Source: Actinopolymorpha sp. NPDC004070 (GTDB taxonomy: Bacteria; Actinomycetota; Actinomycetes; Propionibacteriales; Actinopolymorphaceae). Taken from it: 64,000 bases of DNA. The stretch covers positions 310,001 through 374,000 of the forward strand of contig NZ_JBEXMJ010000001.1 of NCBI RefSeq assembly GCF_040610475.1. The letters run 5' to 3'. This document shows, one piece after another, positions 10,462 to 42,923 of this stretch. The position numbers were made by a program, and so were the translations under genes. The notes beneath the pieces are model-generated. The model had not been told where the DNA came from. It did no database searches and worked only from the letters and a program-made list of their open reading frames with translations. How positions within the stretch are numbered: the first letter of the stretch is position 1; every line of letters begins with the position of its first letter.

Positions 10462-10893
10462 ATGCCTCCGAAGAAGAAGATCGCCTCCGTACTCAAGCTC
10501 CAGCTGCAGGCTGGCGCCGCCACCCCCGCTCCGCCGGTGGGTACGGTGCTCGGCCCGACCGGCATCAACATCATGGAGTTCACGAAGGCCTACAACGCCG
10601 CGACCGAGTCCCAGCGGGGCAACGTCATCCCCGCCGAGATCACGATCTACGAGGACCGGACGTTCACCTTCGTCACCCGGACCCCTCCGGCCGTGGAGCT
10701 GATCAAGAAGGCGATCAGCCTCGACAAGGGCTCCCCGACCCCGCACACCGCGAAGGTCGGCACCATCTCGCGCGCCCAGGTGCGGGAGATCGCGGAGATG
10801 AAGATGCCCGACCTGAACGCCAACGACATCGACGCCGCCATGAAGGTCGTCGAGGGTACGGCGCGGTCGATGGGCGTCACGGTCTCCGAGTAG
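10462..10893 (+). CDS. rplK: 50S ribosomal protein L11, with altered thiopeptide loop
   Basis: A 143-residue L11 that binds 23S rRNA helices 43-44 at the GTPase centre. Overall similarity is normal ([40 protein letters not shown]). The otherwise almost invariant loop PPVGPALGQHG reads [12 protein letters not shown]28, V29, P32 and T33 replace P, A, Q and H. This loop packs against thiostrepton-type thiopeptides. ATG 10462; the operon continues to rplA. Confidence 0.95.
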
Positions 10894-10998
10894 TCCGTAC
10901 GGCAGACAGCTCGACCGGCCGGACCACGGTCCGGCGTCCTGGTGGGAGGGCCCGCGCTGGCCCGCACCACGACTCCACCACCGATTCCAGGAGTGATC

Positions 10999-11709
10999 AT
11001 GAAGCGCAGCAAGTCCTACCGCGCCGCGGCCGAGAAGGTCGACCAGGCCGCACTGCACGACCCCCGCGAAGCGGTGGCGCTGGCCAAGCAGAACGCCAAC
11101 AAGAAGTTCGACGAGACCGTGGACGTCGCGATGCGTCTCGGTGTCGACCCCCGCAAGGCCGACCAGATGGTGCGCGGCACCGTCAACCTTCCGCACGGCA
11201 CCGGCAAGACCGCTCGGGTCCTGGTCTTCGCCACCGGACAGAAGGCTGAGGACGCCACCGCCGCCGGCGCCGACTACGTGGGCTCCGACGACCTGATCGA
11301 GCGGATCCAGGGCGGCTGGCTGGACTTCGACGCCGTTGTCGCCACGCCGGACCTGATGGGCAAGGTCGGCCGGCTCGGCCGGGTGCTCGGCCCCCGCGGT
11401 CTGATGCCGAACCCGAAGACCGGCACCGTCACGCCCGACGTCACCAAGGCCGTGACCGACATCAAGGGCGGAAAGATCGAGTTCCGCGTCGACCGGCACG
11501 CCAACCTGCACTTCATCATCGGCAAGGCGTCCTTCAGCGAGGACCAGCTCGCGGAGAACTACGGCGCCGCCCTCGACGAGGTGCTCCGGCTCAAGCCGTC
11601 CGCCTCCAAGGGCCGCTACATCCGCAAGGTCACGCTGTCGACCACGATGGGTCCCGGCGTTCCGGTCGACCCGGCCAAGACCGTCTCGACCGCTGAGGCC
11701 TCGGCCTAA
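10999..11709 (+). CDS. rplA: 50S ribosomal protein L1
   Basis: A 236-residue L1, of usual length, that builds the L1 stalk and helps release E-site tRNA. Conserved blocks are [37 protein letters not shown] and [21 protein letters not shown] 10999 follows CCAGGAG. A strong hairpin 15 bases after the stop ends this unit. Confidence 0.96.
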
Positions 11710-11724
11710 CGCGATCCCGTCCAG

Positions 11725-11756
11725 GACGCCCTCGCACCTCTCGGTGCGGGGGCGTT
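11725..11756 (+). terminator. Terminator after rplA
   Basis: A 14-bp stem, GACGCCCTCGCACC with GGTGCGGGGGCGTT (one internal and one terminal T-G pair), loop TCTC, followed by a pyrimidine-rich TCTGCCTTCTCC. Confidence 0.75.
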
Positions 11757-11870
11757 CTGCCTTCTCCGCGGTTCTCCGTACGCCGGATGCTTGGTCGTCC
11801 GGTGAGCGGAAGTTGTCGCCGTGCCAGGGCAACGCCCGGTGACATTTGTGCGTCGAGCCATCGTCGACGC

Positions 11871-11900
11871 TTCCGGGCGCTGATCACTCGCGGTTAGGAT
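11871..11900 (+). promoter_or_regulatory. Promoter for the two exported-protein genes
   Basis: TTCCGG (11871-11876), an 18-base spacer and a consensus-like -10 TAGGAT (11895-11900). It lies after the rplA terminator and 56 bases before the lipoprotein start, so the pair has its own transcript. Confidence 0.5.
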
Positions 11901-11955
11901 ATGAGCGCTTTGTCGCGGACGGGTGGCGAGGCGACGGGCACACACGGGGGTACGC

Positions 11956-12585
11956 GTGCGCTTCACATCTGGACTGACCAACAGACGATCGACCAGGGCG
12001 GTCGCGGTCGTCGCCGGTGTCGTTCTCGGGTTGTCGGCGGCGGCGTGCGGCGGGGACTCTCCGCAGCCGGCGACGATGGACACCCCGACCGCGAAGTCCA
12101 CCCCCACGAAGTCGGCCACACCGACCCCGACTCCGAGCCCGTCGGCCAGCCCGACCAAGCCCGGCAGGATCGAGACGTTCGGTCCGGCGCCCACCGGACC
12201 GGAGGCCGCGGCGGTGAGGGCGTTCGTGACGAGGTACGTCACTACGGTCAACAAGGCGATCGAGACCGGCGACGTCTCCAGGCTTCGCCAGATGTACACC
12301 AGCGGATGTCTGGACTGCGTGCAGCTCGCCGCCAGCATCAGGTCCACCTACGGCGGCGGTGGGAAGTTCGTGGGCGGTCTCTACACCCGAAACCACGTCG
12401 AGGTGTTCTCCGAATCCGGTGGGACCTACATGGTGCACGTGCGGTCCCTCTCCACCGCCTGGAAGCAGTACAACTCCGCCGGCTCGGTGGTCAACCAGGG
12501 CCCGGCCGAGCGAGTGACGTACTCATACGGCGTGCGGAAGATCAGCGGCAACTGGCAGTTGACAGCCGGGGGGAAGTCGCAATGA
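11956..12585 (+). CDS. Putative lipoprotein with Pro/Thr/Ser linker and CxxC (DUF6318-like)
   Basis: From GTG 11956 the product has 209 residues. A basic start and hydrophobic run end in a lipobox-like LSAAAC, giving a lipidated C31. Residues 35-70 are a Pro/Thr/Ser/Lys linker of the kind that spans the wall. Residues 80-209 form a compact domain, starting AAAVRAFVTRYVTTVNKAIETG, with a CLDC motif (C118, C121). The domain resembles actinobacterial DUF6318 lipoproteins, but that match is from memory. GTG 11923 is an alternative start. It is coupled by ATGA to the next exported-protein gene. Function unknown; probably anchored outside the membrane. Confidence 0.65.
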   Translation: MRFTSGLTNRRSTRAVAVVAGVVLGLSAAACGGDSPQPATMDTPTAKSTPTKSATPTPTPSPSASPTKPGRIETFGPAPTGPEAAAVRAFVTRYVTTVNKAIETGDVSRLRQMYTSGCLDCVQLAASIRSTYGGGGKFVGGLYTRNHVEVFSESGGTYMVHVRSLSTAWKQYNSAGSVVNQGPAERVTYSYGVRKISGNWQLTAGGKSQ

Positions 12586-13475
12586 CGAAGATCGTCGGGG
12601 TCGCGCTGGGCGGCCTTCTCCTGATGGCGTTCGGGCTGGTCGTGCCGGCACCGGCCGCGCGTGCGGACATCCCGCGCGGAGACGTCGGCTGGCAGTACAG
12701 CGAGTCCGGCCGGGGCTACTACCAGCCTCCCAAGGGCACGCCGACCCCCTCGCAGCCACCCGGTCCGAACGACTGGGTGCAGGAGATCCTGATCAACCAG
12801 CCGGAGTGGGATTGCAGGGGCGCCGGGATCGGTGACTGCAGCCCGCTGGCGATCTGGTGCAACCCGGACCTGTCACCGAATCCGCGTGAGCCGATCTATG
12901 TCCGTTCGGTCGTGCGCTACCAGTGGAAGGACCGCGGAGACCGCGCGAAGTGGCACGGGACGGCCGACTGCTACCCCACCCCGGAGTGGGTTCCGATCGA
13001 GCAGCTCAGCTACGACTTCAAGTACGAGATCCAACGCAACCTGCCCAAGCCGAGGATCTCGCTGCACCCGGCTCCGAAGACCTTGGTCAACCTGCCGACG
13101 ATCGTCTCGGTCGACGACCCGGGCACACAGACCTTCGACATCACGGTGCCGCCGTCGCAGGGGCGCACCTTCGAACTCCACGGGCAGATCACCGCCACCC
13201 CGGACTACACCTGGACCTTCGAGGACGCCGGCGGAGGCAGGCACACCGTCAAGGGGGCGGGGCGGCAGTTCGACGGGACGCTCCCCGATGGTCACCCTGG
13301 CTACTACGTGACGAACACATTCGGCACCGCGGGCCAGGGCAAGGTCCACCTGCAGGTGCGTTGGACGGGAACGGTCGTCGTGGACACCGTCCCGCCACAA
13401 CCGATCGTGCCGGTCACGTTCGACGCCGACACCACGGTGCAGGTAGTGGAGTCACACCCGGTACTCAGCCGCTAG
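12582..13475 (+). CDS. Secreted protein of unknown function with possible PKD-like domain
   Basis: 297 residues. A signal peptide (residues 1-28) ends in APAARA/D. The mature part begins with a Gly/Pro/Tyr-rich stretch (WQYSESGRGYYQPPKGTPTP), then a Trp-rich domain with four cysteines (WDCRGAGIGDCS, IWCNPD, TADCYP) that may form two disulfides. Residues about 200-270 (TPDYTWTFEDAGGGRHTVKG, YVTNTFGTAGQGKVHLQVRW) resemble a PKD or Ig-like repeat. ATGA overlap with the lipoprotein gene implies joint expression and perhaps interaction. No enzyme motif is seen. Confidence 0.65.
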   Translation: MTKIVGVALGGLLLMAFGLVVPAPAARADIPRGDVGWQYSESGRGYYQPPKGTPTPSQPPGPNDWVQEILINQPEWDCRGAGIGDCSPLAIWCNPDLSPNPREPIYVRSVVRYQWKDRGDRAKWHGTADCYPTPEWVPIEQLSYDFKYEIQRNLPKPRISLHPAPKTLVNLPTIVSVDDPGTQTFDITVPPSQGRTFELHGQITATPDYTWTFEDAGGGRHTVKGAGRQFDGTLPDGHPGYYVTNTFGTAGQGKVHLQVRWTGTVVVDTVPPQPIVPVTFDADTTVQVVESHPVLSR

Positions 13476-13550
13476 GCGGAGATTCATCCCGCGTCTCCGG
13501 ACGGCCGGAAGGGTCCGGGCGACCGGAGACGGCCCCGGGCCGGGGCCGAT

Positions 13551-13580
13551 TTGGCGGCCGGGGGAGGCGTCCCGTATTCT
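13551..13580 (+). promoter_or_regulatory. rplJp: Promoter of rplJ-rplL
   Basis: TTGGCG (13551-13556), an 18-base spacer and TATTCT (13575-13580). It gives a leader of about 238 bases before rplJ. The same TATTCT is used at rplM and the tRNA-Thr unit. Confidence 0.7.
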
Positions 13581-13587
13581 GGCGGCT

Positions 13588-13824
13588 GCCGAAGACCGCT
13601 GGTTTGCCTCCCTCCGGGGTGGCTGAAGGTCCCGCACGTCGGGCGGCCCGCGCAGGCGTCACGTGGTAACGAAGTCGAGATCAGGTTTCCGGGTCGCGGG
13701 TGACCGCGAGCGGAGTCCTGGCCCTCGAGTTCGTGTTCGCCCCGTACGCATGCGTACGGGGCTTTTCCCATTCTGTGGATTCCTTCCAGGCCGCGGTCGC
13801 AGGCCCCTCAGAGGAAGGAGATCC
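13588..13824 (+). promoter_or_regulatory. rplJ leader (L10-leader-like) with attenuator hairpin
   Basis: The long untranslated leader of rplJ. Near its 5' end it has GAAGACCGCTGG (13591-13602), similar to the conserved core of L10-binding leaders, where L10(L12)4 represses its own synthesis. Further down, 13739-13762 is a perfect 24-base palindrome centred on CGTACGCATGCGTACG, directly followed by TTTT (13763-13766). That is an intrinsic-terminator shape 59 bases before rplJ and may act as an attenuator. A good ribosome site GAGGAAGGAG precedes the ATG. The L10-leader label is by motif and position only. Confidence 0.6.
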
Positions 13825-14442
13825 ATGGCGAAGCCGGACAAGGCAACCGCCGTCGCAGAGCTCACGGACCAGTTCCGCGACTCCGCCGGCGCGGTCCTGA
13901 CCGAGTATCGCGGACTCACCGTGAAGCAGCTGCAGGAACTGCGGCGCTCCATCGGTGACAACGCCAGTTACGCCGTGGTGAAGAACACGCTGACCAGGAT
14001 CGCGGCGAAGGAGGCGGGAGTCGAGATCGCCGACGAGCTTCTCGTCGGTCCCTCGGCCATCGCGTTCATCAGCGGCGACCCGGTCGAGGTCGCCAAGGGT
14101 CTGCGTGACTTCGCCAAGGCCAACCCCAATCTCGTCATCAAGGGCGGCGTGCTCGAGGGCCGGTCCCTCGCCGTCGACGAGATCACCAGGCTCGCTGACC
14201 TCGAGTCCCGCGAGGTCCTGCTCGCGAAGCTCGCGGGCGCGATGCTGGCGTCGCTTTCGGGCGCCGCCTCGCTGTTCCAGGCCCCGCTGTCGCAGGCCGC
14301 CCGGCTCGCCGAGGCGCTGCGTCAGAAGGTCGAGGAGGAGGGCCCGGCCGCAGGTGCCGACGCCACCCCCGAGGCCGACGCCGAGGCCGCACCGGAAGCC
14401 AGCTCCGACGCGTCGGACGCCGGCGAGTCCAGCGAGTCCTGA
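13825..14442 (+). CDS. rplJ: 50S ribosomal protein L10
   Basis: A 205-residue L10, base of the L7/L12 stalk. Conserved N-terminal rRNA-binding part ([36 protein letters not shown]) and a C-terminal helix that binds L12 dimers, followed by an acidic Ala/Glu/Asp/Ser tail (about 176-205) longer than in E. coli. ATG 13825 after AAGGAG. Likely autoregulated through the leader upstream. Confidence 0.96.
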
Positions 14443-14495
14443 CCTGACCAGGTCTGACCGTCACCACTGCACGACACACGGAAGGTACGCCACTC

Positions 14496-14882
14496 ATGGC
14501 TAAGCTCAGCAACGACGAGCTGCTCGACGCGTTCAAGGAGATGACGCTTCTCGAGCTCAGCGAGTTCGTGAAGCAGTTCGAGGACACCTTCGGCGTGACC
14601 GCGGCCGCTCCGGTCGCCGTCGCGGCGGGCCCCGCGGCCGGCGGCGCCGCGCCTGAGGCCGAGGAGGAGAAGGACGAGTTCGACGTCGTCCTCGAGGCCG
14701 CGGGCGACAAGAAGATCCAGGTCATCAAGGAGGTGCGCACGCTCACCAGCCTCGGCCTGAAGGAGGCCAAGGACCTGGTCGAGGGCGCGCCGAAGCCCGT
14801 CCTGGAGAAGGTCAACAAGGAGACCGCGGAGAAGGCCAAGGAGTCCCTCGAGGCTGTTGGCGCCAAGGTCACCCTGAAGTAA
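14496..14882 (+). CDS. rplL: 50S ribosomal protein L7/L12
   Basis: A 128-residue L12. N-terminal dimerisation helices (residues 1-35), a flexible Ala/Gly/Pro hinge (36-58) and a C-terminal domain ([24 protein letters not shown] ... [15 protein letters not shown]) that recruits EF-G, EF-Tu and other translational GTPases. It sits 53 bases after rplJ in the same operon; a very stable hairpin follows. Confidence 0.97.
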
Positions 14883-14923
14883 GCGACGTTCGTCCGCGGT
14901 CCACGCGGCCGCGTCGTCTGTCT

Positions 14924-14966
14924 GCGAAGAGGGCGGTCACCCCGACGGGGTGGCCGCCCTCTTCGC
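14924..14966 (+). terminator. Terminator-type hairpin after rplL
   Basis: A long stem of about 19-20 bp: GCGAAGAGGGCGG pairs with CCGCCCTCTTCGC, inner CACCCC/GGGGTG, GA loop. No T-run follows, as is common for actinobacterial I-shaped terminators. Confidence 0.7.
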
Positions 14967-15108
14967 GTCCGCGGACCGGAAATTGGTCGTCGACGCGGCC
15001 GTAACCTCCCCACCTTCGGCTCGTTGAGGGGGGCGTGCGTATCGGTCGCCGCCACCGGGGGGTCTGCGGCGGCCGGTACGCACGCAGACCGGCCGTGAGG
15101 AGTTTCAG

Positions 15109-16023
15109 GTGGGCGTCGAGATCCGGGTGGACGGGCTCACCAAGTCCTTCGGTGGCCAGCCGGTCTGGCGCGACGTCAGCCTGACGCTTCCGTCCGGTGA
15201 GATCAGCGTCCTGCTCGGGCCTTCCGGCACGGGCAAGTCGGTCTTCCTCAAGTGCCTGGTCGGCCTGCTCAAACCGGACCGGGGCCACATCCTCATCGAG
15301 GGCCACGACATCGCGACCTGCCGGGAGCGGGAGCTGTACCGCGTCCGCCGGCTGTTCGGTGTCCTCTTCCAGGACGGCGCGTTGTTCGGCTCGATGAACC
15401 TCTACGACAACGTGGCGTTCCCGCTGCGCGAACACACCCGCAGGTCCGAGAACGAGATCCGCTCCGTCGTGATGTCGAAGATCGAGATGGTCGGGCTGCT
15501 CGGCGCCGAGCGCAAGCTGCCCGGTGAAATCTCCGGCGGGATGCGCAAGCGGGCCGGGCTGGCCAGGGCGCTCGTCCTGGACCCCGAGATCATCCTGTTC
15601 GACGAGCCCGACTCAGGTCTGGACCCGGTGCGGACGGCGTACCTCAACCAGCTGATCGTCGACCTCAACCAGCAGACCGGCGCGACGTTCCTCATCGTCA
15701 CCCACGACATCAACACCGCGCGGACGGTGCCCGACAACATCGGGCTGCTCTACCACCGGCACCTCGCGATGTTCGGTCCGCGGGAGATGTGCCTGTGCTC
15801 GCAGGAACCGGTCGTACGGCAGTTCCTCAACGCCCAGCGGGTGGGCCCGATCGGCATGTCGGAGGAGAAGGACGCCGACGAGCTCGCGGCCGAGCGGGCG
15901 GCCGGCGCCGAGCTGGCAGCGCTGCCGCCGATCCCGCTCCAGCTCGGGCCGTCCGACGGGCAGCCGAGACCCAGTCAGCGGCCGCCCGGGAAGTGGTGTG
16001 CCGACAACGACGTGACCCCGTGA
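15109..16023 (+). CDS. Mce-type (MlaF/Mkl-like) ABC transporter ATP-binding protein
   Basis: A 304-residue ABC ATPase that powers MCE lipid importers. Walker A GPSGTGKS (residues 37-44), Q-loop VLFQDGALF, signature ISGGMRKRAGLARAL, Walker B IILFDEPDSGLDP, and VTHDI with the switch His. The ISGGMRKR signature is typical of the Mkl/MlaF group. A 60-residue C-terminal extension (from about 240) is common in actinobacterial members. GTG start with GAGG upstream. It ends in a GTGA overlap with the first permease, opening the mce operon. Confidence 0.9.
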   Translation: MGVEIRVDGLTKSFGGQPVWRDVSLTLPSGEISVLLGPSGTGKSVFLKCLVGLLKPDRGHILIEGHDIATCRERELYRVRRLFGVLFQDGALFGSMNLYDNVAFPLREHTRRSENEIRSVVMSKIEMVGLLGAERKLPGEISGGMRKRAGLARALVLDPEIILFDEPDSGLDPVRTAYLNQLIVDLNQQTGATFLIVTHDINTARTVPDNIGLLYHRHLAMFGPREMCLCSQEPVVRQFLNAQRVGPIGMSEEKDADELAAERAAGAELAALPPIPLQLGPSDGQPRPSQRPPGKWCADNDVTP

Positions 16024-16793
16024 GCTGGCAGCCGACGGCACCGCTGCAGGCGAGCGGCCGGCTGTTCGCGTTCGGGCTCGGCGTCGTCCGCGGGCTGCCG
16101 CGGCGGCCGTTCCAGTGGCAGGAGTTCGTCCGCCAGGCGTGGTTCCTGGCCGGCGTCACGATCGTGCCGACGGCACTGGTGGCGATTCCGTTCGGCGCCG
16201 TCATCGCCTTGCAGGTGGGTGGGCTGATCCGACAGTTCGGCGCCCAGTCGTTCGCCGGCGCGGCGATGGTGCTCGCCGTGGTGCGGGAGGCGTCGCCGAT
16301 CGCGACCGCGCTGCTGATCGCCGGCGCGGGCGGGTCGGCGATCTGCGCCGACCTCGGTTCGCGCACGATCAGGGAGGAGATCGACGCGATGCGGGTGCTC
16401 GGCATCGACCCGCTGCACCGGCTGGTCGTGCCCCGGGTGCTCGCCGCGATGTTCGTCGCCGTCTTCCTCAACGGCCTGGTGAGCGTCGTCGGCGTGATCG
16501 GCGGCTATGTCTTCAACGTCGTCCTGCAGGGCGGCACCCCCGGCGCCTACCTCGCGTCGTTCACCGCACTGGCGCAGCTGCCGGACCTGTGGGCCGGTGA
16601 GGTCAAGGCGCTGGTGTTCGGGCTGGTCGCCGCCGTGGTCGCGTCGTACAAGGGCCTGAACGCCGGCGGCGGGCCGAAGGGCGTCGGCGACGCGGTCAAC
16701 CAGACCGTGGTGATCACGTTCATGTTGTTGTTCTTCGCGAACTTCGTGATGCAGGCGATCTACTTCCAGGTCGTCCCGCCGAAGGGCGCCTGA
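16020..16793 (+). CDS. YrbE/MlaE-family permease, first copy
   Basis: A 257-residue integral membrane permease of the MlaE/YrbE family, which forms the inner-membrane channel of MCE importers. An amphipathic N-terminal helix (FQWQEFVRQAWFLAG) is followed by about five membrane spans. The conserved cytoplasmic loop LGSRTIREEIDAMRVLGIDPLHRLVVPR contacts the ATPase. GTG 16020 overlaps the ATPase stop (GTGA). It pairs with the second permease as a heterodimer, as in mycobacterial YrbEA/B. Confidence 0.9.
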   Translation: MSWQPTAPLQASGRLFAFGLGVVRGLPRRPFQWQEFVRQAWFLAGVTIVPTALVAIPFGAVIALQVGGLIRQFGAQSFAGAAMVLAVVREASPIATALLIAGAGGSAICADLGSRTIREEIDAMRVLGIDPLHRLVVPRVLAAMFVAVFLNGLVSVVGVIGGYVFNVVLQGGTPGAYLASFTALAQLPDLWAGEVKALVFGLVAAVVASYKGLNAGGGPKGVGDAVNQTVVITFMLLFFANFVMQAIYFQVVPPKGA

Positions 16794-16794
16794 C

Positions 16795-17604
16795 GTGGCC
16801 TGGCGACCGGTGCGCGGCCTGGACATGCTGGGCGACCAGCTCGCCTTCTACGTGCGGGCGGCCGGGTGGATGCCCGCGACCGTACGCCGCTACCGGCGCG
16901 AAGTGCTGCGGCTGCTGGCCGAGGTGAGCTTCGGCACCGGTGCGCTGGCCGTCGTCGGCGGCACGGTCGGGGTGATCGCGTTCCTGGCGTTCTTCACCGG
17001 CACCGAGGTCGGCCTGCAGGGGTACGCCGCACTCGACCAGCTGGGCACCTCCGCCTACGCGGGCTTCGTCTCGGCGTACTTCAACACCCGCGAGATCGCC
17101 CCGCTGATCGCCGGCATCGCCCTCGCGGCGACGGTCGGCTGCGGCTTCACCGCCCAGCTCGGCGCGATGCGGGTCAGCGAGGAGGTCGACGCGCTGGAGG
17201 TGATGGCCGTCCCGTCGCTGCCGTTCCTCGTCAGCACGCGGATCGTCGCCGGGCTGCTCGCGGTCGTCCCGTTGTACGTCGTCGGGTTGTTCTCGTCGTA
17301 CGCGGCGACCCGGCTCGTCGTCACCTCGGCCTACGGCCAGAGCGCCGGGACCTACGACCACTACTTCCACCTGTTCCTGCCGCCGCACGACGTGCTCTGG
17401 TCGTTCGGCAAGGTGCTGGTGTTCGCGGTGGTGATCATCTCGATCCACTGCTACCACGGCTACCACGCCACCGGCGGCCCGGCAGGAGTCGGCGTGGCGG
17501 TCGGCCGGGCGGTCCGCACGTCCATCGTGGCAATCAACGTCGTCGACCTGGCGCTGTCGATGGCGATCTGGGGCGCGAGCACCACCGTGCGGCTGGCGGG
17601 CTAG
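16795..17604 (+). CDS. YrbE/MlaE-family permease, second copy
   Basis: A 269-residue MlaE-type permease, partner of the preceding one. The coupling-loop motif is LGAMRVSEEVDALEVMAVPSLPFLVSTR, the characteristic EExDALxxM sequence. About five hydrophobic segments follow. The start is one base after the previous stop and the end 3 bases before the first MCE gene, so it is tightly coupled. Confidence 0.9.
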   Translation: MAWRPVRGLDMLGDQLAFYVRAAGWMPATVRRYRREVLRLLAEVSFGTGALAVVGGTVGVIAFLAFFTGTEVGLQGYAALDQLGTSAYAGFVSAYFNTREIAPLIAGIALAATVGCGFTAQLGAMRVSEEVDALEVMAVPSLPFLVSTRIVAGLLAVVPLYVVGLFSSYAATRLVVTSAYGQSAGTYDHYFHLFLPPHDVLWSFGKVLVFAVVIISIHCYHGYHATGGPAGVGVAVGRAVRTSIVAINVVDLALSMAIWGASTTVRLAG

Positions 17605-17607
17605 ACG

Positions 17608-18972
17608 ATGACCGGTCGAACGCGGTTGGCGACGATGGCCCGGCGGCTGCGGCGGTCCGGGCGGCTGGGCCCAAGGGTGCTGGGGATCGTCTTCCTCGCC
17701 CTCCTGGTGGGGTTCGGCGGCCTGACGTACGCCTTCTTCACCCAGGCGTTCACCGACACCGCCGAGGTGACCCTCGAGACCGACCACGTGGGACTGGAGC
17801 TGGACCGGCAGGCCGACGTGAAGGTCCGAGGCCTGATCGTGGGGGAGGTACGCCACGTCGCCTCCGACGGCCGACAGGCCCGGGTCGACCTCGCGCTGAC
17901 GCCGGACAGCCTGGCCGCGATCCCCGCCAACGTGACCGCCCGGATCGTGCCGAAGACGTTGTTCGGGGAGAAGTACGTCGAACTCGTCCTGCCGCCCACG
18001 CCGTCCTCGCGCAGGCTCGCGGCCGGCGACGTGATCGGGCCGGACCGGTCGAGCGTGGCGATCGAGCTCGCCGCCGTGCTCGAGGACGTCTACCCGCTGC
18101 TGCGCACCCTCCGCCCGGCCCAGTTGAACGCGACGCTGGCGGCGCTCGCCACCGCGCTGGAGGGGCGCGGCGACCGGATCGGCGCCAACCTCACCCGGCT
18201 GAACGCCTACCTCGGCAAGCTCGACCCGCACCTGCCGCAGCTCACCCACGACGTGTCCGCCCTCGCCGACGTCGCCGACGTCTACGCCGACGCCACTCCC
18301 GACCTGGTGCGGCTGCTGCGCAACGCCACGAAGACCGGGAACACCGTGGTGGTCAAGCAGCGGGTGCTGGAGGACTTCCTCACCGACCTCGCCGGCACCA
18401 GCGCGTCCACCCGCAGGTTCCTGGCCGACAACGAGGCCGGCCTGATCCGGGTCGGCGAGGTGAGCCGGCCGACGCTGGACCTGCTGGCGACGTACTCCCC
18501 GGAGTACTCCTGTCTGCTGGAAGGCCTGGCGAACTGGGTGCCCCGCATCGACGACGCGTTCGGCGGCGGCGAGCACTACCCGGGCAGCGCGCCTTCGCTG
18601 CACATCACGCTGGAGATCGTCGACCAGCACCGCGGCTACGGGCCGCAGGACCGGCCGGCGTACGACGACGACCGCGGGCCGGGTTGCCGTTCGCTGCCGG
18701 ATCCGCCGTACTCCCAGGCAGACCCCGCGCCGGGCAGCGGCGTACGGGAGGGAGTCGGCGGCCCCGGCTCCGCTTCCGGCGGCTCCGGCTCCGCGTCCGG
18801 TGCGGCGCCGGTGTTCGACCTGTCCAGCGGGTACGCCGGCACCGCGCAGGAGCAGCGGGTGGTCGACGCGCTGGTGGCGCCGGTGCTGCGGACCCCGCCC
18901 GAGGACGTACCCGACGTGACCACCCTGCTGTACGGTCCGCTGGTCCGGGGGACCCGGGTGAGCATCGGATGA
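17608..18972 (+). CDS. MCE family protein, first (MceA position)
   Basis: 454 residues. One N-terminal membrane anchor (VLGIVFLALLVGFGGLTYAFF) precedes an MCE beta-barrel domain (about 50-135: GLELDRQADVKVRGLIVGEV, ARIVPKTLFGEKYVELVLP). A long helical region follows that would assemble the lipid-conducting needle. The tail (about 370-420) is Pro/Gly/Ser-rich. ATG 17608; overlaps the next gene by ATGA. By analogy with mycobacterial Mce1/Mce4, six different MCE proteins form a hexamer that shuttles lipids or sterols across the envelope. Confidence 0.9.
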   Translation: MTGRTRLATMARRLRRSGRLGPRVLGIVFLALLVGFGGLTYAFFTQAFTDTAEVTLETDHVGLELDRQADVKVRGLIVGEVRHVASDGRQARVDLALTPDSLAAIPANVTARIVPKTLFGEKYVELVLPPTPSSRRLAAGDVIGPDRSSVAIELAAVLEDVYPLLRTLRPAQLNATLAALATALEGRGDRIGANLTRLNAYLGKLDPHLPQLTHDVSALADVADVYADATPDLVRLLRNATKTGNTVVVKQRVLEDFLTDLAGTSASTRRFLADNEAGLIRVGEVSRPTLDLLATYSPEYSCLLEGLANWVPRIDDAFGGGEHYPGSAPSLHITLEIVDQHRGYGPQDRPAYDDDRGPGCRSLPDPPYSQADPAPGSGVREGVGGPGSASGGSGSASGAAPVFDLSSGYAGTAQEQRVVDALVAPVLRTPPEDVPDVTTLLYGPLVRGTRVSIG

Positions 18973-26529: not shown

Positions 26530-29500
26530 TTGGCCGCTTCGCGTTCCACTGCGTCCACCACGTCCGCCCGCACATCCACCTCCGATCGCGTCGCCGCGCC
26601 ACATCGCGTCTCGTTCGCCAAGATCAAGGAGCCCGCCGAGGTTCCCGACCTGCTCGCGTTGCAGGTCGAGAGCTTCGACACCCTGGTCGGCAACGAGCGG
26701 TGGCAGGCCCGCTCGGAGAAGGCCCTCTCGGAGGGCCGTCACGACGTTCCCGACCGTTCCGGTCTGGAGGAGATCTTCGAGGAGATCTCCCCGATCGAGG
26801 ACTTCTCGGGAACGATGTCCCTCTCGTTCCGTGATCACCGGTTCGAGCCGCCGAAGAACTCCGTCGACGAGTGCAAGGACCGCGACTTCACCTACGCGGC
26901 CCCGTTGTTCGTCACCGCGGAGTTCATGAACAACGAGACCGGCGAGATCAAGTCCCAGACGGTCTTCATGGGCGACTTCCCGCTCATGACCGACAAGGGG
27001 ACGTTCGTGATCAACGGCACCGAGCGTGTCGTGGTCAGCCAGCTCGTGCGTTCGCCCGGCGTCTACTTCGAGCGCTCGCTCGACAAGACGAGCGACAAGG
27101 ACGTCTTCACAGCCAAGATGATCCCCTCGCGGGGTGCCTGGCTGGAGTTCGAGGTCGACAAGCGCGACACCGTTGGTGTCCGGCTCGACCGTAAGCGCAA
27201 GCAGAACGTCACCGTCCTCCTCAAGGCGCTCGGCTGGACCGACGCGCAGATCCTGGAGGAGTTCGGCGACTACGAGTCGATGCGTCTCACGCTGGAGAAG
27301 GACCACACCTCCGGCCAGGACGACGCGCTGCTCGACATCTACCGCAAGCTGCGGCCCGGCGAGCCCCCCACGCGGGAGGCGGCGCAGGCGCTGCTGGAGA
27401 ACTACTACTTCAACCCGAAGCGGTACGACCTCGCCAAGGTCGGCCGGCACAAGATCAACAAGAAGCTCGGGTTGACGCTGCCGCACGACCAGTCGGTGCT
27501 GACCATCGACGACATCGTGGCCACGATCCGCTACCTCGTCGCGCTGCACGAGGGCCGGACCGAGCTCGACGCGCCGCAGGGTCAGATCGTCGTCGAGGAC
27601 GACGACATCGACCACTTCGGCAACCGCCGGGTGCGCACCGTCGGCGAGCTGATCCAGAACCAGCTCCGCACCGGCCTGGCCCGGATGGAGCGGGTGGTCC
27701 GCGAGCGGATGACGACCCAGGACGTCGAGGCGATCACGCCGCAGACCCTGATCAACATCCGCCCCGTCGTCGCGGCGCTGAAGGAGTTCTTCGGCACCTC
27801 CCAGTCCAGCCAGTTCATGGACCAGACCAACCCCGTCGCCGGGCTGACGCACAAGCGTCGCTTCTCGGCGCTGGGCCCCGGTGGTCTGTCCCGTGACCGG
27901 GCCGGCATGGAGGTCCGCGACGTCCACCACTCCCACTACGGCCGGATGTGCCCGGTGGAGACGCCGGAAGGACCGAACATCGGTCTGATCGGTTCGCTCG
28001 CCACCTACGGCCGGGTCAACCCGTTCGGGTTCGTGGAGACGCCCTACCGCAAGGTCGTCGACGGCCGGGTCACCGACGAGGTGGAGTACCTCACCGCCGA
28101 CGAGGAGGACCGTTTCGTCATCGCCCAGGCCAACGCGGTGCTGAACGACGACGGCACCTTCGCCGAGGACCGCGTGCTGGTCCGCAAGCGGCACGGTGAG
28201 GTCGACGCGATCGCTCGCGCCGAGGTCCAGTACATGGACGTCTCGCCCCGGCAGATGGTGTCGGTCGCCACGGCGATGATCCCGTTCCTGGAGCACGACG
28301 ACGCCAACCGCGCGCTGATGGGTTCCAACATGCAGCGCCAGGCGGTGCCGCTGATCCGTTCGGAGTCGCCGCTCGTCGGCACCGGGATGGAATACCGCGC
28401 CGCCGTCGACGCCGGTGACGTCGTGACCGCCGAGAAGGCCGGTGTGGTCCGCGAGGCCTGCGCCGACTTCGTGGAAGTCGCGTGCGACGACGGTACGTAC
28501 CAGACGTACCGGCTGGCGAAGTTCCGCCGGTCCAACGCGGGTACCAACATCAACCAGCGTCCGCTCGTCGCCGAGGGCGACCGGGTGGAGGTCGGTTCGG
28601 TGATCGCCGACGGGCCGTGCACCGACAACGCCGAGATGGCGCTCGGTCGCAACCTTCTGGTCGCGTTCATGTCGTGGCAGGGCCACAACTACGAGGACGC
28701 GATCATCCTGTCCCAGCGGATCGTCCAGGAAGACGTCCTCACCTCGATCCACATCGATCGGCACGAGGTCGACGCCCGTGACACCAAGCTGGGGCCGGAG
28801 GAGATCACCCGGGACATCCCGAACGTCTCCGAGGAGATGCTGGCCGACCTCGACGAGCGGGGCATCATCCGGATCGGCGCCGAGGTCGTCCCCGGCGACA
28901 TCATCGTCGGCAAGGTCACGCCCAAGGGCGAGACCGAGCTGACGCCGGAGGAGCGGCTGCTCCGGGCGATCTTCGGTGAGAAGGCCCGTGAGGTCCGCGA
29001 CACGTCGCTGAAGGTTCCGCACGGCGAGAGCGGCACGGTCATCGGTGTCCGCGTCTTCGACCGCGAGGAAGGCGACGAGCTGCCCCCGGGCGTCAACCAG
29101 CTGGTCCGGGTCGACGTGGCCCAGAAGCGCAAGGTGCAGGACGGTGACAAGCTTGCCGGCCGGCACGGGAACAAGGGCGTGATCTCCAAGATCCTGCCCG
29201 TGGAGGACATGCCGTTCCTCGAGGACGGCACCCCCGTCGACATCATCCTGAACCCGCTCGGCGTGCCGGGCCGGATGAACGTCGGCCAGGTCCTCGAGAC
29301 CCACCTCGGGTGGGTCGCGAAGTCCGGCTGGCAGGTCGAGGGCGACGACGAGGAGTGGAAGACCCGCCTCACCGGCATCGGTGCCGGCGCGGCGGAGCCG
29401 GGCACCAACGTCGCGACCCCGGTCTTCGACGGGGCCCGCGAGGAGGAGATCACCGGCCTGCTCTCCTCGACGTTCCCCAACCGGGACGGGGTTCGCATGG

Positions 29501-30027
29501 TCGGCTCGGACGGCAAGGCACCCTTGCTGGACGGCCGAAGCGGCGAGCCGTTCCCGGAGCCGGTGGCGGTCGGCTACATCTACATGCTGAAGCTCAACCA
29601 CCTGGTCGACGACAAGATCCACTCGCGGTCGACCGGCCCGTACTCCATGATCACCCAGCAGCCGCTGGGTGGTAAGGCGCAGTTCGGTGGTCAGCGCTTC
29701 GGTGAGATGGAGGTCTGGGCACTGGAGGCCTACGGCGCGGCGTTCGCGCTGCAGGAGCTCCTCACCATCAAGTCCGACGACGTGACAGGCCGGGTCAAGG
29801 TCTACGAAGCAGTCGTCAAGGGCGAGAACATCCCTGAACCGGGTATCCCGGAGTCGTTCAAGGTGCTCGTCAAGGAAATGCAGGCGCTCTGCCTCAACGT
29901 CGAAGTGCTCTCCAGCGACGGCATGGCCGTGGAGATGCGCGACAGCGAGGAGGACGTCTTCCGCGCCGCGGAGGAACTCGGAATCGACCTGACCCGGCAG
30001 GAGCCGAGCAGCGTCGAGGAAGTCTGA
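26530..30027 (+). CDS. rpoB: DNA-directed RNA polymerase subunit beta, with altered rifampicin region
   Basis: 1165 residues, full length. TTG start at 26530 with GGAAGGA six bases upstream. All landmark motifs are present, including [44 protein letters not shown] and [18 protein letters not shown]. The rifampicin-resistance region (residues 426-446) differs from actinobacterial norm: S426 (E. coli 511, normally Leu), V436 (521), A437 (522) and F445 (530). H467 replaces a conserved Pro (552). The classic resistance sites D516, H526 and S531 are unchanged. It forms the catalytic core with rpoC. Confidence 0.98.
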
Positions 30028-34480: not shown

Positions 34481-34505
34481 GCGACACACCCGACCGCGGG
34501 GGTCG
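34481..34505 (+). promoter_or_regulatory. Conserved leader element of rpsL, shared with rpsJ
   Basis: A 25-base block starting GCGACACACCCGACCGCG and ending GGGTCG. It is repeated without a mismatch in the rpsJ leader (39232-39256). It contains a small hairpin (CGACC/GGTCG, loop GCGGG). It lies 84 bases before the rpsL start inside the predicted leader RNA, so it is probably an RNA-level or transcription-elongation signal. Confidence 0.6.
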
Positions 34506-34589
34506 CGCGGTGAGCCCAGTGAGACGCCGCCGCCGCGAAGACAGTCACACCGGAGAGACAGTCCACCGAGCAGAAGAGGGAACGACGCG

Positions 34590-34964
34590 GTGCCCACGAT
34601 CCAGCAGTTGGTCCGCAAGGGCCGCAAGGACAAGGTGTCCAAGAACAAGACGCCGGCGCTCAAGGGTTCGCCCCAGCGGCGTGGCGTGTGCATGCGCGTC
34701 TACACCACCACCCCTCGTAAGCCCAACTCCGCTCTGCGCAAGGTCGCCCGTGTGCGGCTGACCAGCCAGATCGAGGTCACGGCCTACATCCCCGGCGTCG
34801 GCCACAACCTCCAGGAGCACTCGATGGTGCTCGTGCGCGGTGGCCGGGTGGCGGACCTCCCCGGTGTGCGTTACAAGATCGTCCGCGGCTCCCTCGACAC
34901 CCAGGGTGTGAAGGGTCGCAAGCAGGCCCGCAGCCTCTACGGCGCCAAGAAGGAGAAGAGCTAA
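34590..34964 (+). CDS. rpsL: 30S ribosomal protein S12, with substitutions at streptomycin positions
   Basis: 124 residues, GTG start. S12 controls decoding accuracy. The sequence is otherwise typical ([38 protein letters not shown]). Two positions that define streptomycin resistance are changed: R43 in [12 protein letters not shown] (normally Lys; the codon at 34716 is CGT) and A88 in [10 protein letters not shown] (normally Lys; the codon at 34851 is GCG). M35 replaces a usual Thr. D89, the RimO methylthiolation site, is intact. The gene overlaps rpsG by one base (TAATG). Confidence 0.97.
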
Positions 34965-35434: not shown

Positions 35435-35530
35435 ACCAGGCGCCTGCTACGGGCAGGACGCGCCGACACCGGCCGCATCTGCTCCCATCTGCCGACTGAA
35501 CTGCCGAGACCCGAGAGAACCGACTGCCTG

Positions 35531-37636
<2,106 letters not shown>

Positions 37637-37657
37637 CCCGCCCACGCCATCAGTCCG

Positions 37658-37663
37658 TATAGT
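37658..37663 (+). promoter_or_regulatory. Possible -10 element for tuf
   Basis: TATAGT in the 79-base fusA-tuf gap, 52 bases before the tuf start. No good -35 is seen. It could give tuf an additional transcript of its own. Confidence 0.35.
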
Positions 37664-37715
37664 TCCGCGCCTAGTCCGAACGGCGTAGATAGTAAGAAAC
37701 CAGGAGGAGCCCGAA

Positions 37716-38912
<1,197 letters not shown>

Positions 38913-38919
38913 CACCACC

Positions 38920-38963
38920 AGCAAGCGGGGTGGACCGCTCCCCAGCGGCCCACCCCGCTTGCT
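38920..38963 (+). terminator. Terminator-type hairpin after tuf
   Basis: A 14-bp outer stem AGCAAGCGGGGTGG/CCACCCCGCTTGCT with an inner CCGCT/AGCGG stem and CCCC loop, separated by a symmetric A/C mismatch, 7 bases after the tuf stop. Confidence 0.8.
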
Positions 38964-38975
38964 GTGAGGCCCCGA

Positions 38976-39006
38976 TTGGTCAACAAACCGGGGACTCTGG
39001 CATACT
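38976..39006 (+). promoter_or_regulatory. Possible promoter of the S10 operon
   Basis: TTGGTC (38976-38981), 19 bases, CATACT (39001-39006). Spacing and -10 are imperfect. The implied leader is about 390 bases. No gene is visible in the 490-base tuf-rpsJ gap. Confidence 0.4.
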
Positions 39007-39231
39007 GCTGCAGTTGCCTACGGCTGGCCGCCGTGGCGTGTTCTGGTGGGGTTCTCTCCCCGGACACTGCCGACACGGAGGTCTCGCCCCTCGAGGGTGC
39101 GCCTGGCGCCTCGATCGGAGTCCGATCGAGGTGACGTGGAAGTCGCAGGGCAATGTTCGCGCTCGGCGGGTCCGAGCCTTCGAGATTCCCCACAGCGGAT
39201 CGCCTCCATGGGATCCATGCGGGCAGGGTGT

Positions 39232-39256
39232 GCGACACACCCGACCGCGGGGGTCG
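39232..39256 (+). promoter_or_regulatory. Conserved leader element of rpsJ, shared with rpsL
   Basis: An exact copy of the 25-base block in the rpsL leader (34481-34505). Here it lies 146 bases before rpsJ and its hairpin extends by one more pair (CCGACC/GGTCGG). The surrounding leader sequence differs, which argues that the block itself is under selection. Confidence 0.6.
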
Positions 39257-39402
39257 GAGGACAGACAGCCAGCGCGGGCCGCGGGGCTCCACCCGGGAGC
39301 CTGGCGGCGCAGCATCGGGCCGCGGCCAACCGGAGCGAAGCCGGAACAGGCATCTCGGGGGCGAACGGCTCCCGGCGTACGAGAGAAGGACGCGAAACAG
39401 CC

Positions 39403-39711
39403 ATGGCGGGACAGAAGATCCGCATCAGGCTCAAGGCCTACGACCACCAGGTCATCGACACATCGGCGCGCAAGATCGTCGACACGGTGACCAGGACTGG
39501 CGCGAAGATCGCCGGCCCGGTGCCGCTGCCCACCGAGAAGAACGTCTTCTGCGTCATCCGCTCGCCGCACAAGCACAAGGACAGTCGCGAGCACTTCGAG
39601 ATGCGGACGCACAAGCGGCTCATCGACATCATCGACCCCACGCCGAAGACGGTCGACTCGCTGATGCGACTCGACCTTCCTGCCGGCGTCGACATCGAGA
39701 TCAAGCTCTGA
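39403..39711 (+). CDS. rpsJ: 30S ribosomal protein S10
   Basis: 102 residues, the first gene of the S10 operon. It also binds NusG/NusB in antitermination. Conserved [29 protein letters not shown] and [20 protein letters not shown]; the loop linked to tigecycline tolerance looks standard. ATG 39403 follows GAGAGAAGGA. Confidence 0.97.
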
Positions 39712-39722
39712 GGGACGCACCT

Positions 39723-40403
39723 ATGAGCAGCGTGAACAGTGTGAGCCAAGGCGCGGCCCGTGAGGTACGCGGCCTGTTGGGCGAGAAGATCGGCATGACG
39801 CAGGTCTGGGACGACCAGAACCGCCTCGTGCCGGTGACCGTGGTCAAGGCCGGCCCGTGTGTGGTCACCCAGGTGCGCACACCGGACCGGGACGGCTACG
39901 CGGCGGTCCAGATCGCGTACGGCGCGATCGACCCCCGCAAGGTCAACAAGCCCGAGCAGGGCCACTTCTCCAAGGCCGGCGTGACGCCGCGCCGCTACAC
40001 GGTGGAGCTCCGCACGGCGGACGCGGCCTCCTACGACACCGGCCAGGAGATCACGGCCGAGGTGTTCGAGGCGGGCCAGGACGTCGACGTGACGGCCACC
40101 AGCAAGGGGAAGGGGTTCGCGGGCGTCATGAAGCGGCACGGCTTCCACGGCCTGCGGGCGAGCCACGGTGTGGAGCGCAAGCACCGCTCCCCGGGTTCGA
40201 TCGGCGCCTGCGCGACCCCCGGTCGCGTCTTCAAGGGCGTCCGGATGGCCGGCCGGATGGGCGGCGTCCGGGTGACCACCCAGAACGTCACCGTCCACGC
40301 GGTGGATGCCGAGAAGGGTCTGGTGCTCCTCAAGGGCGCCGTCCCCGGCGCCCGCGGTGGTCTGGTGCTCATCCGCAACGCGGCGAAGGGAGCGGCCAAG
40401 TGA
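39723..40403 (+). CDS. rplC: 50S ribosomal protein L3
   Basis: 226 residues. L3 reaches the peptidyl-transferase centre through its central extension. Family blocks: [54 protein letters not shown]. The N-terminus has about 15 extra residues relative to E. coli; GTG codons a few residues downstream are possible alternative starts. Overlaps rplD. Confidence 0.96.
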
Positions 40404-41065
40404 CGGCGACGAGCATCGATGTCGTCGACCACACCGGCGGCAAGACCGGTTCGGTCGACCTGCCGGCGGAGATCTTCGACGTCCAGGTCAACGTGCCGTT
40501 GATCCACCAGGTCGTGGTGGCCCAGCAGGCGGCGGCCCGTCAGGGCACGCACGCCGCGAAGGGTCGCTCGCAGGTGTCCGGCGGTGGCGCGAAGCCGTAC
40601 CGCCAGAAGGGCACCGGCCGTGCCCGGCAGGGCTCGCGGCGGGCGCCGCAGTTCGCCGGCGGTGGTGTGGTCCACGGCCCGCAGCCGCGGTCCTACGACC
40701 AGCGCACGCCCAAGAAGATGAAGGCCGCCGCCCTGCGCGGTGCGCTGTCCGACCGGGCCCGCCACGGCCGCGTGCACGTGGTGAGCTCGCTGGTCGAGGG
40801 CGACGCCCCGTCCACCAAGGCCGCGGTCGCGGCGCTGGCGAAGATCGCCGGCGGCGCGCAGCTCCTGGTCGTGGTCGACCGTGAGGACGCGCTCACCTGG
40901 CACAGCCTGCGCAACGTGCCGAGCGTGCACCTGATCGTGCCGGACCAGCTGAACACCTACGACGTGCTCACGTCGGACGAGGTGGTCTTCACCAGCGAGG
41001 CGTACGCCACCTTCACCGGTGCGAACGCCACGGACACCACGACTGAGGCAGGGGAGGACGCGTGA
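40400..41065 (+). CDS. rplD: 50S ribosomal protein L4
   Basis: 221 residues, GTG start in a GTGA overlap with rplC. The tunnel loop ([20 protein letters not shown]) has the normal QKGTGRAR macrolide-site sequence. In several bacteria L4 represses the S10 operon. It overlaps rplW by four bases. Confidence 0.96.
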
Positions 41066-41367
41066 GCAACCTGCACAAGGACCACCGCGACGTGCTTGTC
41101 GCGCCGGTGATCAGTGAGAAGAGCTACGGCCTCCTCGACCAGAACAAGTACACGTTCCTGGTGAGCCCGAGCGCCAACAAGACCGAGATCAAGATCGCGG
41201 TCGAGAAGGTGTTCGACGTGAAGGTGACCGAGGTCAACACGCTCAACCGGCAGGGCAAGCGCCGCCGTACCCGCTACGGCTGGGGTCAGCGGGCGAGCAC
41301 CAAGCGAGCGATTGTCACCGTGGCCGACGGCCAGCGGATCGACATCTTCGGCGGACCGGTTTCGTAA
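41062..41367 (+). CDS. rplW: 50S ribosomal protein L23
   Basis: 101 residues. L23 lies at the tunnel exit and docks trigger factor and SRP. Contains [21 protein letters not shown] and the basic loop [20 protein letters not shown] start overlapping rplD. Confidence 0.96.
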
Positions 41368-41382
41368 GGCGAGGACTGACGA

Positions 41383-42213
41383 ATGGCTATCCGTAAGTAC
41401 AAGCCGACGACACCCGGTCGTCGTGGCGCGAGTGTCGCGGACTTCGCGGAGATCACGCGCACGACGCCCGAGAAGTCGCTGCTGCGCCCCCTTCCGAAGA
41501 AGGGTGGCCGCAACAACACCGGCCGGATCACGACCAGGCACCAGGGCGGCGGTCACAAGCGCGCCTATCGCCTGATCGACTTCCGGCGGTTCGACAAGGA
41601 CGGCGTGCCGGCGAAGGTCGCGGAGATCGAGTACGACCCCAACCGCACCGCCCGGATCGCGCTGCTCCACTACGTGGACGGCGAGAAGCGCTACATCCTG
41701 GCTCCGGCCCGGCTCCAGCAGGGGCAGCGGGTCGAGAGCGGGGTCGGCGCCGACATCAAGCCCGGCAACAACCTTCCGCTCCGCAACATCCCGGTCGGCA
41801 CCACGGTGCACGCGATCGAGCTGCGGCCCGGTGGGGGAGCCAAGATCGGTCGCTCCGCCGGTGCCAGCGTCCAGTTGGTCGCCCGCGAGGGTGCGATGGC
41901 GTCGCTGCGGATGCCCTCCGGTGAGATCCGGATGGTGGACGTGCGCTGCCGCGCCACCGTCGGTGAGGTCGGCAACGCCGAGCAGAGCAACATCTCGCTC
42001 GGCAAGGCCGGCCGCAACCGCTGGAAGGGCAAGCGGCCGTCGGTGCGCGGTGTCGTGATGAACCCCGTCGACCACCCGCTCGGTGGTGGCGAGGGCAAGT
42101 CCTCAGGTGGCCGGCACCCGGTGTCGCCGTGGGGCAAGCCCGAGGGTCGCACCCGCCGCAACAAGCCAAGTGACCGTTTGATCGTCCGTCGCCGCAAGAG
42201 CGGCAAGCGGTAA
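41383..42213 (+). CDS. rplB: 50S ribosomal protein L2, with altered conserved histidine motif
   Basis: 276 residues. L2 supports subunit association and peptidyl transfer. It is normal over most of its length ([25 protein letters not shown]-type region, [16 protein letters not shown]). The nearly universal DHPHGGGEG reads [10 protein letters not shown]233 (codon CTC at 42079) replaces the second His. The essential His (H231 here, equivalent to mature E. coli His229) is kept. Confidence 0.96.
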
Positions 42214-42228
42214 GAGGGAGCCTGAACG

Positions 42229-42510
42229 ATGCCACGCAGCCTCAAGAAGGGCCCCTTCGTCGACGACCACCTGATCAAGAAGGTGGACGCCCAGAACGAC
42301 AAGGGGAGCAAGCAGGTCATCAAGACCTGGTCGCGCCGCTCGATGATCGTGCCGGCGATGCTGGGCCACACGATCGCCGTTCACGACGGACGCAAGCACG
42401 TACCGGTCTTCGTGACCGAGGCGATGGTCGGGCACAAGCTCGGCGAGTTCGCCCCGACGCGGACGTTCCGCGGTCACGAGAAGGACGACCGAAGGAGCCG
42501 GCGCCGGTGA
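42229..42510 (+). CDS. rpsS: 30S ribosomal protein S19
   Basis: 93 residues. S19 sits in the 30S head and contacts S13. Conserved [36 protein letters not shown] and [15 protein letters not shown]. The stop overlaps an upstream GTG of rplV. Confidence 0.96.
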
Positions 42511-42533
42511 CCGCCACAGTCAGGAGTGACGCC

Positions 42534-42923
42534 ATGGAAGCGGCCGTGGAGGCCAGGGCCGTCGCGCGATTCGTTCGCATCACCCCGAGGAAGGCCCGCC
42601 GGGTCGTCGACCTCATCCGCGGCCACCGGGCCGAGGACGCGGTCAACCTGCTGCGCTTCGCGCCGCAGGCGGCCAGCGAGCCGGTGCTGAAGGTGCTGGA
42701 GAGTGCGATGGCCAACGCCGAGCACAACCTCCAGCTCAACCGCGGCACGCTGCGGGTCGTTCGGGCGTACGTCGACGAGGGTCCGACGATGAAGCGTTGG
42801 CGTGCCCGCGCTCAGGGTAGGCCCGGACCGCTGGAAAAGCGGACCTGTCACATCACCGTGGTCGTGGAGCCGACAGACGAGCAGCCGGCCGCCGGCCAGC
42901 AGAGGAACAGGAGGACCCGCTAG
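42534..42923 (+). CDS. rplV: 50S ribosomal protein L22, with divergent tunnel hairpin
   Basis: 129 residues from ATG 42534, which has AGGAG eight bases upstream and fits the family N-terminus. GTG 42507, overlapping the rpsS stop and also with a good site, would add nine residues. Core motifs are normal ([30 protein letters not shown]). The exit-tunnel beta-hairpin reads [19 protein letters not shown] instead of the usual KRxRPRAQGRAxRIxKRTS: A91, P97, G98, P99, E101 and C105 are atypical. The C-terminal tail is basic. Confidence 0.95.

Follow-up and report, generated by a model that had tools for sequence, protein, structure and literature searches.

In the family to which Actinopolymorpha sp. 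NPDC004070 belongs, ribosomal protein S12 carries K43R together with K88A in all eight genomes considered (G000-G007), and 16S rRNA carries C1192G in six of the seven genomes that have a 16S gene. On balance, we lean towards the reading that the small ribosomal subunit of these bacteria would be natively resistant to streptomycin and spectinomycin. The S12 gene lies within the window, the stretch of 64,000 nucleotides of this strain that was analysed (contig NZ_JBEXMJ010000001.1, positions 310,001 to 374,000), and position 1192 of 16S rRNA lies outside it.

According to the original prediction, L11, RpoB, S12, EF-Tu, L22 and L2 deviate precisely at sites of drug contact, as would be expected of target-level resistance fixed in the core genes. 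The residues concerned are as read, at the coordinates given in Table 1. The precise rewriting held for S12, L22 and, in four of the eight genomes, RpoB, but not for EF-Tu, L2 or the main change in L11; at the level of sequence, resistance of the targets themselves finds support for streptomycin (S12 K43R and K88A), but not for thiopeptides, GE2270A or L2. Rarity was counted in Actinomycetota loci outside the family, 19 loci from elsewhere being left out, and columns with fewer than 20 outgroup letters were skipped both here and in the clustering counts. The E. coli residue numbers are presumed equivalents.

Table 1. Features of the window and residues considered
Feature	Coordinates	Strand	Observation
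rplK, L11	10462..10893	+	T28/P32 in 29/62 outgroup rows; V29/T33/I35 family-specific
rpoB	26602..30027	+	start as used in the analysis
RpoB codon 402, Ser (E. coli L511)	27805..27807	+	family 4/8
RpoB codon 421, Phe (E. coli 530)	27862..27864	+	family 4/8
rpsL, ribosomal protein S12	34590..34964	+	one S12 match per family genome (8/8)
S12 codon 43, Arg (K43R)	34716..34718	+	family 8/8; outgroup 0/134
S12 codon 88, Ala (K88A)	34851..34853	+	family 8/8; outgroup 0/134
tuf, EF-Tu	37716..38912	+	A262 (E. coli 257) also in 7/128 outgroup rows; ordinary
rplB, L2	41383..42213	+	L233 in other lineages, His231 kept; ordinary
rplV, L22	42507..42923	+	loop altered: P100A (codon 42804-42806), A106P (codon 42822-42824)
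rpsE, S5	47854..48456	+	none of 119 columns that are invariant across 11 outgroup rows is violated

Protein S12 and 16S rRNA

The S12 deviation is the strongest case of the predicted set. K43 is retained in all 134 Actinomycetota outgroup loci, and position 88 is K in 126 of them, R in eight and A in none. We take K43 and K88 to be the two lysines that hold streptomycin in structural work, and K43R to be a known streptomycin-resistance allele; the double change would then alter both lysines. A substitution of K43 or K88 in the sole S12, the mark of streptomycin-resistant rpsL alleles, is found in every family genome. The residues are the same as in laboratory and clinical resistance alleles, represented in the accessible text of one study by K43N, K43T, K88E and K88R (PMC12416847). 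The family differs in that the change is double and family-wide and is known here from sequence, and in that K88A is not among the alleles given in that text.

Among database S12 proteins, a change at 86/88 accompanies K43R in 15 of 24, against two of 176 with K43 (200 of 240 parsed), and R86 with a basic residue at 88 is kept in 13 of 38 K43R proteins (258 of 283 parsed); these counts are biased towards K43R, since one of the searches had a K43R query and two others a K43R+K88A query. The S12 tree contains only three supported independent pairs, and thus the coupling is not significant after allowing for relatedness. The combination of K43R with K88A is also present in other S12 backgrounds outside the family, so a reason other than drugs is possible. 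The recurrence of K43R with K88A or R86Q in several backgrounds would suit drug-independent, clade-specific co-evolution of the decoding region, where K43R, the 86/88 loop and helix 34 would tune accuracy or speed and resistance would be a by-product. We give this explanation, whose general form the original prediction offered as its alternative, real, if limited, credence.

Position 1192 of 16S rRNA is G in G000-G004 and G006 and C in G007, no 16S being matched in G005. In the six genomes with G, each of the 11 rrn copies fetched (one from G000, two from each of the others) has this base, whereas E. coli and all 11 actinobacterial outgroup sequences have C. Position 1064 remains G in the family, so that C1192 is substituted with G1064 kept, and in every copy fetched, as in spectinomycin resistance of the C1192 class. 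The substitution breaks the G1064-C1192 pair of helix 34, the place where spectinomycin binds. Since G1064 then faces G1192, this is not a simple compensatory flip, which argues against co-evolution. A predicted resistance of the spectinomycin target through C1192G, which lay outside the view of the original prediction, is supported by these bases.

C1192G is one of 23 changes, in at least one family member, among 1,026 conserved 16S columns; in 23S rRNA, 55 of 1,859 conserved columns are changed. Most of the changed columns lie away from presumed drug sites, which is consistent with co-evolution. To meet a single known resistance base in 23 changed columns would probably be unsurprising alone, and could come from a few neutral changes that fell on famous positions and were picked by the reader's eye. 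The clustering and recurrence described below make us regard such a chance origin as improbable.

Protein S5, another spectinomycin target, is unchanged, which also fits co-evolution: the spectinomycin loop showed no change in the seven family loci fetched. As a candidate second spectinomycin change, S5 was rejected, there being no violations in its invariant columns.

The pattern by itself, with two aminocyclitol/aminoglycoside targets changed, would also suit production of an aminocyclitol or streptomycin-like drug by the lineage, with the altered targets as its protection. We consider such self-protection of a producer highly unlikely.

In an E. coli host, C1192G increased the spectinomycin MIC from 32 to >1,024 ug/mL and was reported to be moderately disadvantageous (Miyazaki and Kitahara 2018, PMC5882664). 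The change was natural there as in the family, coming from an environmental 16S gene that carried U1189C along with C1192G and was obtained without its genome. In the family, by contrast, C1192G is tied to genomes, occurs in all copies fetched of six members and is paired with the S12 changes. Lysobacter enzymogenes resembles the family in having intrinsic spectinomycin resistance through the 16S target. However, it is reported to show no difference at the two known hot spots (PMC9471086), whereas the family is changed at C1192 itself. A limited, term-based literature search found no data on streptomycin or spectinomycin susceptibility of the family.

A plausible link between the two changes would be collateral sensitivity. 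In E. coli, rpsL mutations that confer streptomycin resistance come with a trade-off involving spectinomycin, and thus a lineage with changed S12 would gain from a change in helix 34; the trade-off was reported for other alleles, K43R and K88A not being among those tested (PMC12416847). We infer from the sequences a resistance phenotype of the organism, selection by drugs and the link between S12 and C1192G. If native resistance is the true reading, a bacterial family would inherit as its norm the resistance bases watched in the clinic, such changes could persist through a family's history, nature would combine two resistances whose interaction is known from the laboratory, and tools calling K43R or C1192G new mutations would misread such genomes.

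Clustering at drug sites and the other predicted targets

Rare residues cluster at drug sites, in agreement with the original prediction. Over 15 proteins (L11 not included), five of the 17 violations of 97%-conserved columns fall at drug sites, against 0.72 expected (94 of 2,221 columns; hypergeometric probability 5e-4), the list of sites being a presumed one, compiled after the first finding was known. This argues against chance. It also counts against co-evolution, as none of 80 other genomes exceeds three such violations. On the other hand, in G007 alone drug sites account for two of 16 violations (P 0.16), as chance would allow. In the conserved-column comparison S13, S11, S4, RpoA and L17 had no usable columns, too few outgroup loci extending there.

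The L22 deviation was confirmed. The residues A100 and P106, which we take to be E. coli 87 and 93, are found in none of 72 outgroup loci and in seven of the eight family genomes; G007 has P at 100 and V at 106. No change was observed at the macrolide-related 23S positions 2057, 2058, 2059, 2062 and 2611 in an alignment of six family genomes (all but G003 and G005).

The RpoB claim survived in part. S402 is absent from 62 outgroup loci and F421 from 63, and both are limited to G000, G001, G003 and G004. However, T409 (35/62 outgroup loci) and A413 (43/63) are common. Among residues 511, 516, 526 and 531, which presumably contact rifamycins, only the first is changed, the other three being normal. 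Low-level rifamycin or macrolide effects of RpoB L511S and the L22 loop are possible.

For EF-Tu, L2 and the main L11 change the predicted rewriting dissolved into ordinary variation, as a chance origin would imply. The L11 motif GTxLGP was ruled out as lineage-specific, T28 and P32 each occurring in 29 of 62 outgroup rows; V29, T33 and I35 occur in none of the 62 and in all eight family genomes. The prolines for thiopeptide resistance we take to be E. coli 22, 23 and 26. No distinctive change was found at these: prolines 24 and 25 of L11 are intact, and the third position is T in the same 29 rows. No change was seen at the thiopeptide bases A1067 and A1095 of 23S rRNA in the alignment of six family genomes; base 1067 was not recovered from the 23S copies of G008. 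In EF-Tu the GE2270A-resistance sites are presumably G257 and G275. Alanine at 257 was ruled out as a rare change, glycine is retained at 275, and there is one violation in 227 columns conserved at 95%. Leu233 of L2 was likewise discarded: leucine is found in five of 78 Actinomycetota rows, M, L or N in seven rows from elsewhere, and there are no violations in 166 conserved columns.

Recurrence outside the family and age of the changes

The S12 R43 pattern was found in five of 396 genomes of the phylum, namely G000 plus four members of a single Rubrobacter-like genus. One Rubrobacter-like genome, from another class, independently combines S12 K43R (with R86Q) and C1192G; the recurrence is this single assembly of 570 contigs. 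It argues against chance. A non-C pattern at 1192 occurred in ten genomes, three matches proving to be 16S (G in G000 and G508, T in G409), and the wild-type pattern in 144, the matches not each confirmed as 16S. In this phylum sample, the two genomes that combine K43R with a 16S that can be read are both C1192G, against one of 145 others (Fisher 2.8e-4). G409 has C1192T together with S12 K43, and G007 has the S12 pair, yet C1192.

K43R, a change at 86/88 and C1192G may even form a convergent natural genotype of at least two actinobacterial classes, in which the S12 change exposes the ribosome to spectinomycin and favours a change in helix 34. We offer this tentatively and think it rather unlikely. 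No description of the pairing of S12 K43R with C1192G was found among the literature matches listed, and we claim its absence no further; the search for Rubrobacter and drugs returned only an unrelated match.

The changes differ in age, judging by their distribution. The S12 pair, present in the whole family, dates back at least to the family's origin. Apart from G007, every member examined has C1192G and the altered L22 loop, which thus either arose once the G007 branch had separated or were lost in it. In the family tree of ten proteins, from which three outgroup rows filled to less than 40% were dropped, G007 does not branch outside G006 (support 25), so that the tree lends no support to the order of S12 before C1192G. 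The RpoB changes at 511 and 530, restricted to a subclade of four species, were the last step.

Streptomycin and spectinomycin sites of the small subunit

The relatives considered were five species of the window's genus (G001-G005), two further genera of the family (G006, 4.4 Mb, and G007, 8.5 Mb; the window's genome, G000, has 6.37 Mb) plus representatives of three families elsewhere in the order. The rarity sample consisted of 80 named loci and 80 further stretches (at most 20 kb each) around the S12 gene; for L11, loci of relatives and 40 additional genomes were used. Proteins were projected onto the window's own, and 19 rows from outside Actinomycetota were excluded from the counts. Residue numbers given for L22, RpoB and EF-Tu are E. 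coli numbers from presumed alignments; those of L11 are the window's own.

Lysines 43 and 88 of S12 hold streptomycin, and K43R is a classic change giving high-level resistance. Residue 43 is arginine in all eight family genomes and lysine in 134/134 outgroup loci; residue 88 is alanine in all eight, and lysine (126) or arginine (8) in the outgroup loci. The original prediction of a drug-site deviation in S12 is thus confirmed. Cutibacterium and Nocardioides are among the best-matching named loci for this protein. In EF-G, M659T (methionine in 131/131 outgroup rows) and Y676P are family-wide; they are possible partners of the S12 change.

Position 1192 of 16S rRNA lies within the spectinomycin site, and C1192G would be predicted to confer resistance. 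This change was observed in G000-G004 and G006, with G in 11/11 rrn copies fetched from these genomes; G007 retains C1192, and the search of the G005 genome gave no 16S match. C1192 is also the base in E. coli and in each of the 11 actinobacterial sequences of the outgroup. The pairing partner G1064 is unchanged in the family. PMC5882664 reports that the spectinomycin MIC of an E. coli host lacking native rrn operons went from 32 to above 1,024 ug/mL with C1192G, at a moderate disadvantage to the host; an environmental 16S gene carried C1192G together with U1189C, and U1189C gave an MIC of 256 ug/mL. G007 has U1189C, to which we give little weight since the C form of this motif is frequent among wild-type 1192 matches.

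No changes were observed at 23S positions 1067, 1095, 2058, 2059, 2062, 2505 and 2611 in six aligned family genomes, and S5 has no violations in the 119 columns that do not vary among 11 outgroup rows. In one aligned 23S copy of an order relative (G008, L296), base 1067, the thiostrepton methylation site, is G, not A.

Recurrence and coupling of the changes

A scan of 396 genomes from the phylum found the S12 R43 pattern in five: that of the window and four from one genus of another class, whose best named relatives are Rubrobacter. These four also have R86Q and retain K88; three other readable S12 proteins of that genus have K43, R86 and K88. The non-C 1192 pattern matched 10 genomes, and three matches were verified as 16S: the window's genome (G), G508 (G), which is one of the four Rubrobacter-like K43R genomes, and G409 (T; L341), of a Rubrobacter-like family, with a spectinomycin-type base and S12 ordinary at 43 and 88. 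The many odd bases that the 16S sequences of G508 and its relative G409 have in common speak against a stray contig. The wild-type pattern was found in 144 genomes, the 16S identity being confirmed for a part of the matches at most. C1192G is present in both K43R genomes with readable 16S versus 1/145 genomes without the R43 pattern, for part of which S12 was read directly (P 2.8e-4). The remaining three K43R genomes had no 16S match to either 1192 pattern.

Two database searches yielded 200 S12 proteins that could be parsed; in these, substitutions at position 86 or 88 (K88R not scored) accompany K43R in 15/24 cases and K43 in 2/176 (P 1e-14, uncorrected for relatedness). Adding a third search gave 25/38 versus 2/220, in a sample biased by all three queries being K43R proteins. 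The exact K43R and K88A pair is not confined to this family: Rubrobacter-like proteins and further S12 backgrounds have it too; proteins P0248, P0254, P0259, P0261, P0264, P0272, P0275 and P0280 carry it on backgrounds unlike that of the window's family. An S12 tree built without the three sites leaves only three supported independent pairs for a relatedness-corrected test of the coupling.

Drug selection would be a somewhat more probable cause than co-evolution of the decoding centre, a possible alternative. PMC12416847 describes a trade-off between streptomycin and spectinomycin in E. coli rpsL mutants with the alleles K43N, K43T, K88E, K88R and P91Q, and we read its direction as greater spectinomycin sensitivity. 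Where it encounters spectinomycin-like drugs, a lineage with changed S12 might then profit from a change in helix 34.

Other drug targets and clustering of rare residues

The L22 loop also deviates as predicted: P87 and A93, invariant in 72/72 outgroup rows, are replaced by A and P in seven of the eight family genomes (P and V in G007). In RpoB, L511S (0/62 outgroup rows) and 530F (0/63) have no outgroup match but are restricted to G000, G001, G003 and G004; N518T (35/62) and S522A (43/63) are common. In L11, T28 and P32 each occur in 29/62 outgroup rows, so that the conspicuous GTxLGP is for the most part not peculiar to the family. Prolines 24 and 25 are unaltered, and V29, T33 and I35 are family-specific. 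EF-Tu and L2 are not distinctive, as A257 of EF-Tu occurs in 7/128 outgroup rows, and the L2 leucine in 5/78 Actinomycetota, the histidine two residues earlier being retained.

Rare residues (states shared by no more than 5% of outgroup rows) constitute 13% of L22, 10% of L11, 6% of L4, 5% of L3 and between 1 and 4% of each of eleven further proteins; EF-Tu has 12 rare sites. In 15 proteins, 2,221 columns reach a conservation of at least 97%, and the window violates 17 of them. Five violations fall within the 94 drug-site columns versus 0.72 expected (hypergeometric 5e-4), given a presumed list of columns compiled after the original finding was known, with the L22 loop contributing 20 residues; K88A is left out because K88 falls below the 97% limit. 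By this measure rare residues are concentrated at drug sites. In the same test 80 genomes outside the family had none (46), one (26), two (7) or three (1) such violations, the counts being lowered where fewer drug-site columns are covered (e.g. 54-63); the sole genome with three has 99 violations overall. G007 by itself has 2/16 at drug sites (P 0.16, not significant). Of the proposed rewriting of one locus at the drug sites of L11, RpoB, S12, EF-Tu and L22, and additionally L2, amid normal neighbours, S12, L22 and the clustering stand, and EF-Tu, L2 and the main L11 state do not.

Order of changes

The S12 change goes back at least to the common ancestor of the family and likely preceded the others. 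C1192G and the L22 change were either gained after the split of G007 or lost in G007; a tree of ten other proteins has support 25 at the G006/G007 branching. The same tree groups G000, G001, G003 and G004 with full support, making L511S/530F of RpoB the youngest change.

One E. coli 16S sequence is perhaps foreign or replaced: it is 93.5% identical to another E. coli 16S, the 23S of the same genome being 99.6% identical to that of the other E. coli.

Coordinates of EF-G and of the unusual E. coli 16S gene
Feature	Sequence	Positions	Length
EF-G	window	35531-37636	
16S rRNA	E. coli NZ_CP091836.1 (L315)	5256-6775	1,520 nt
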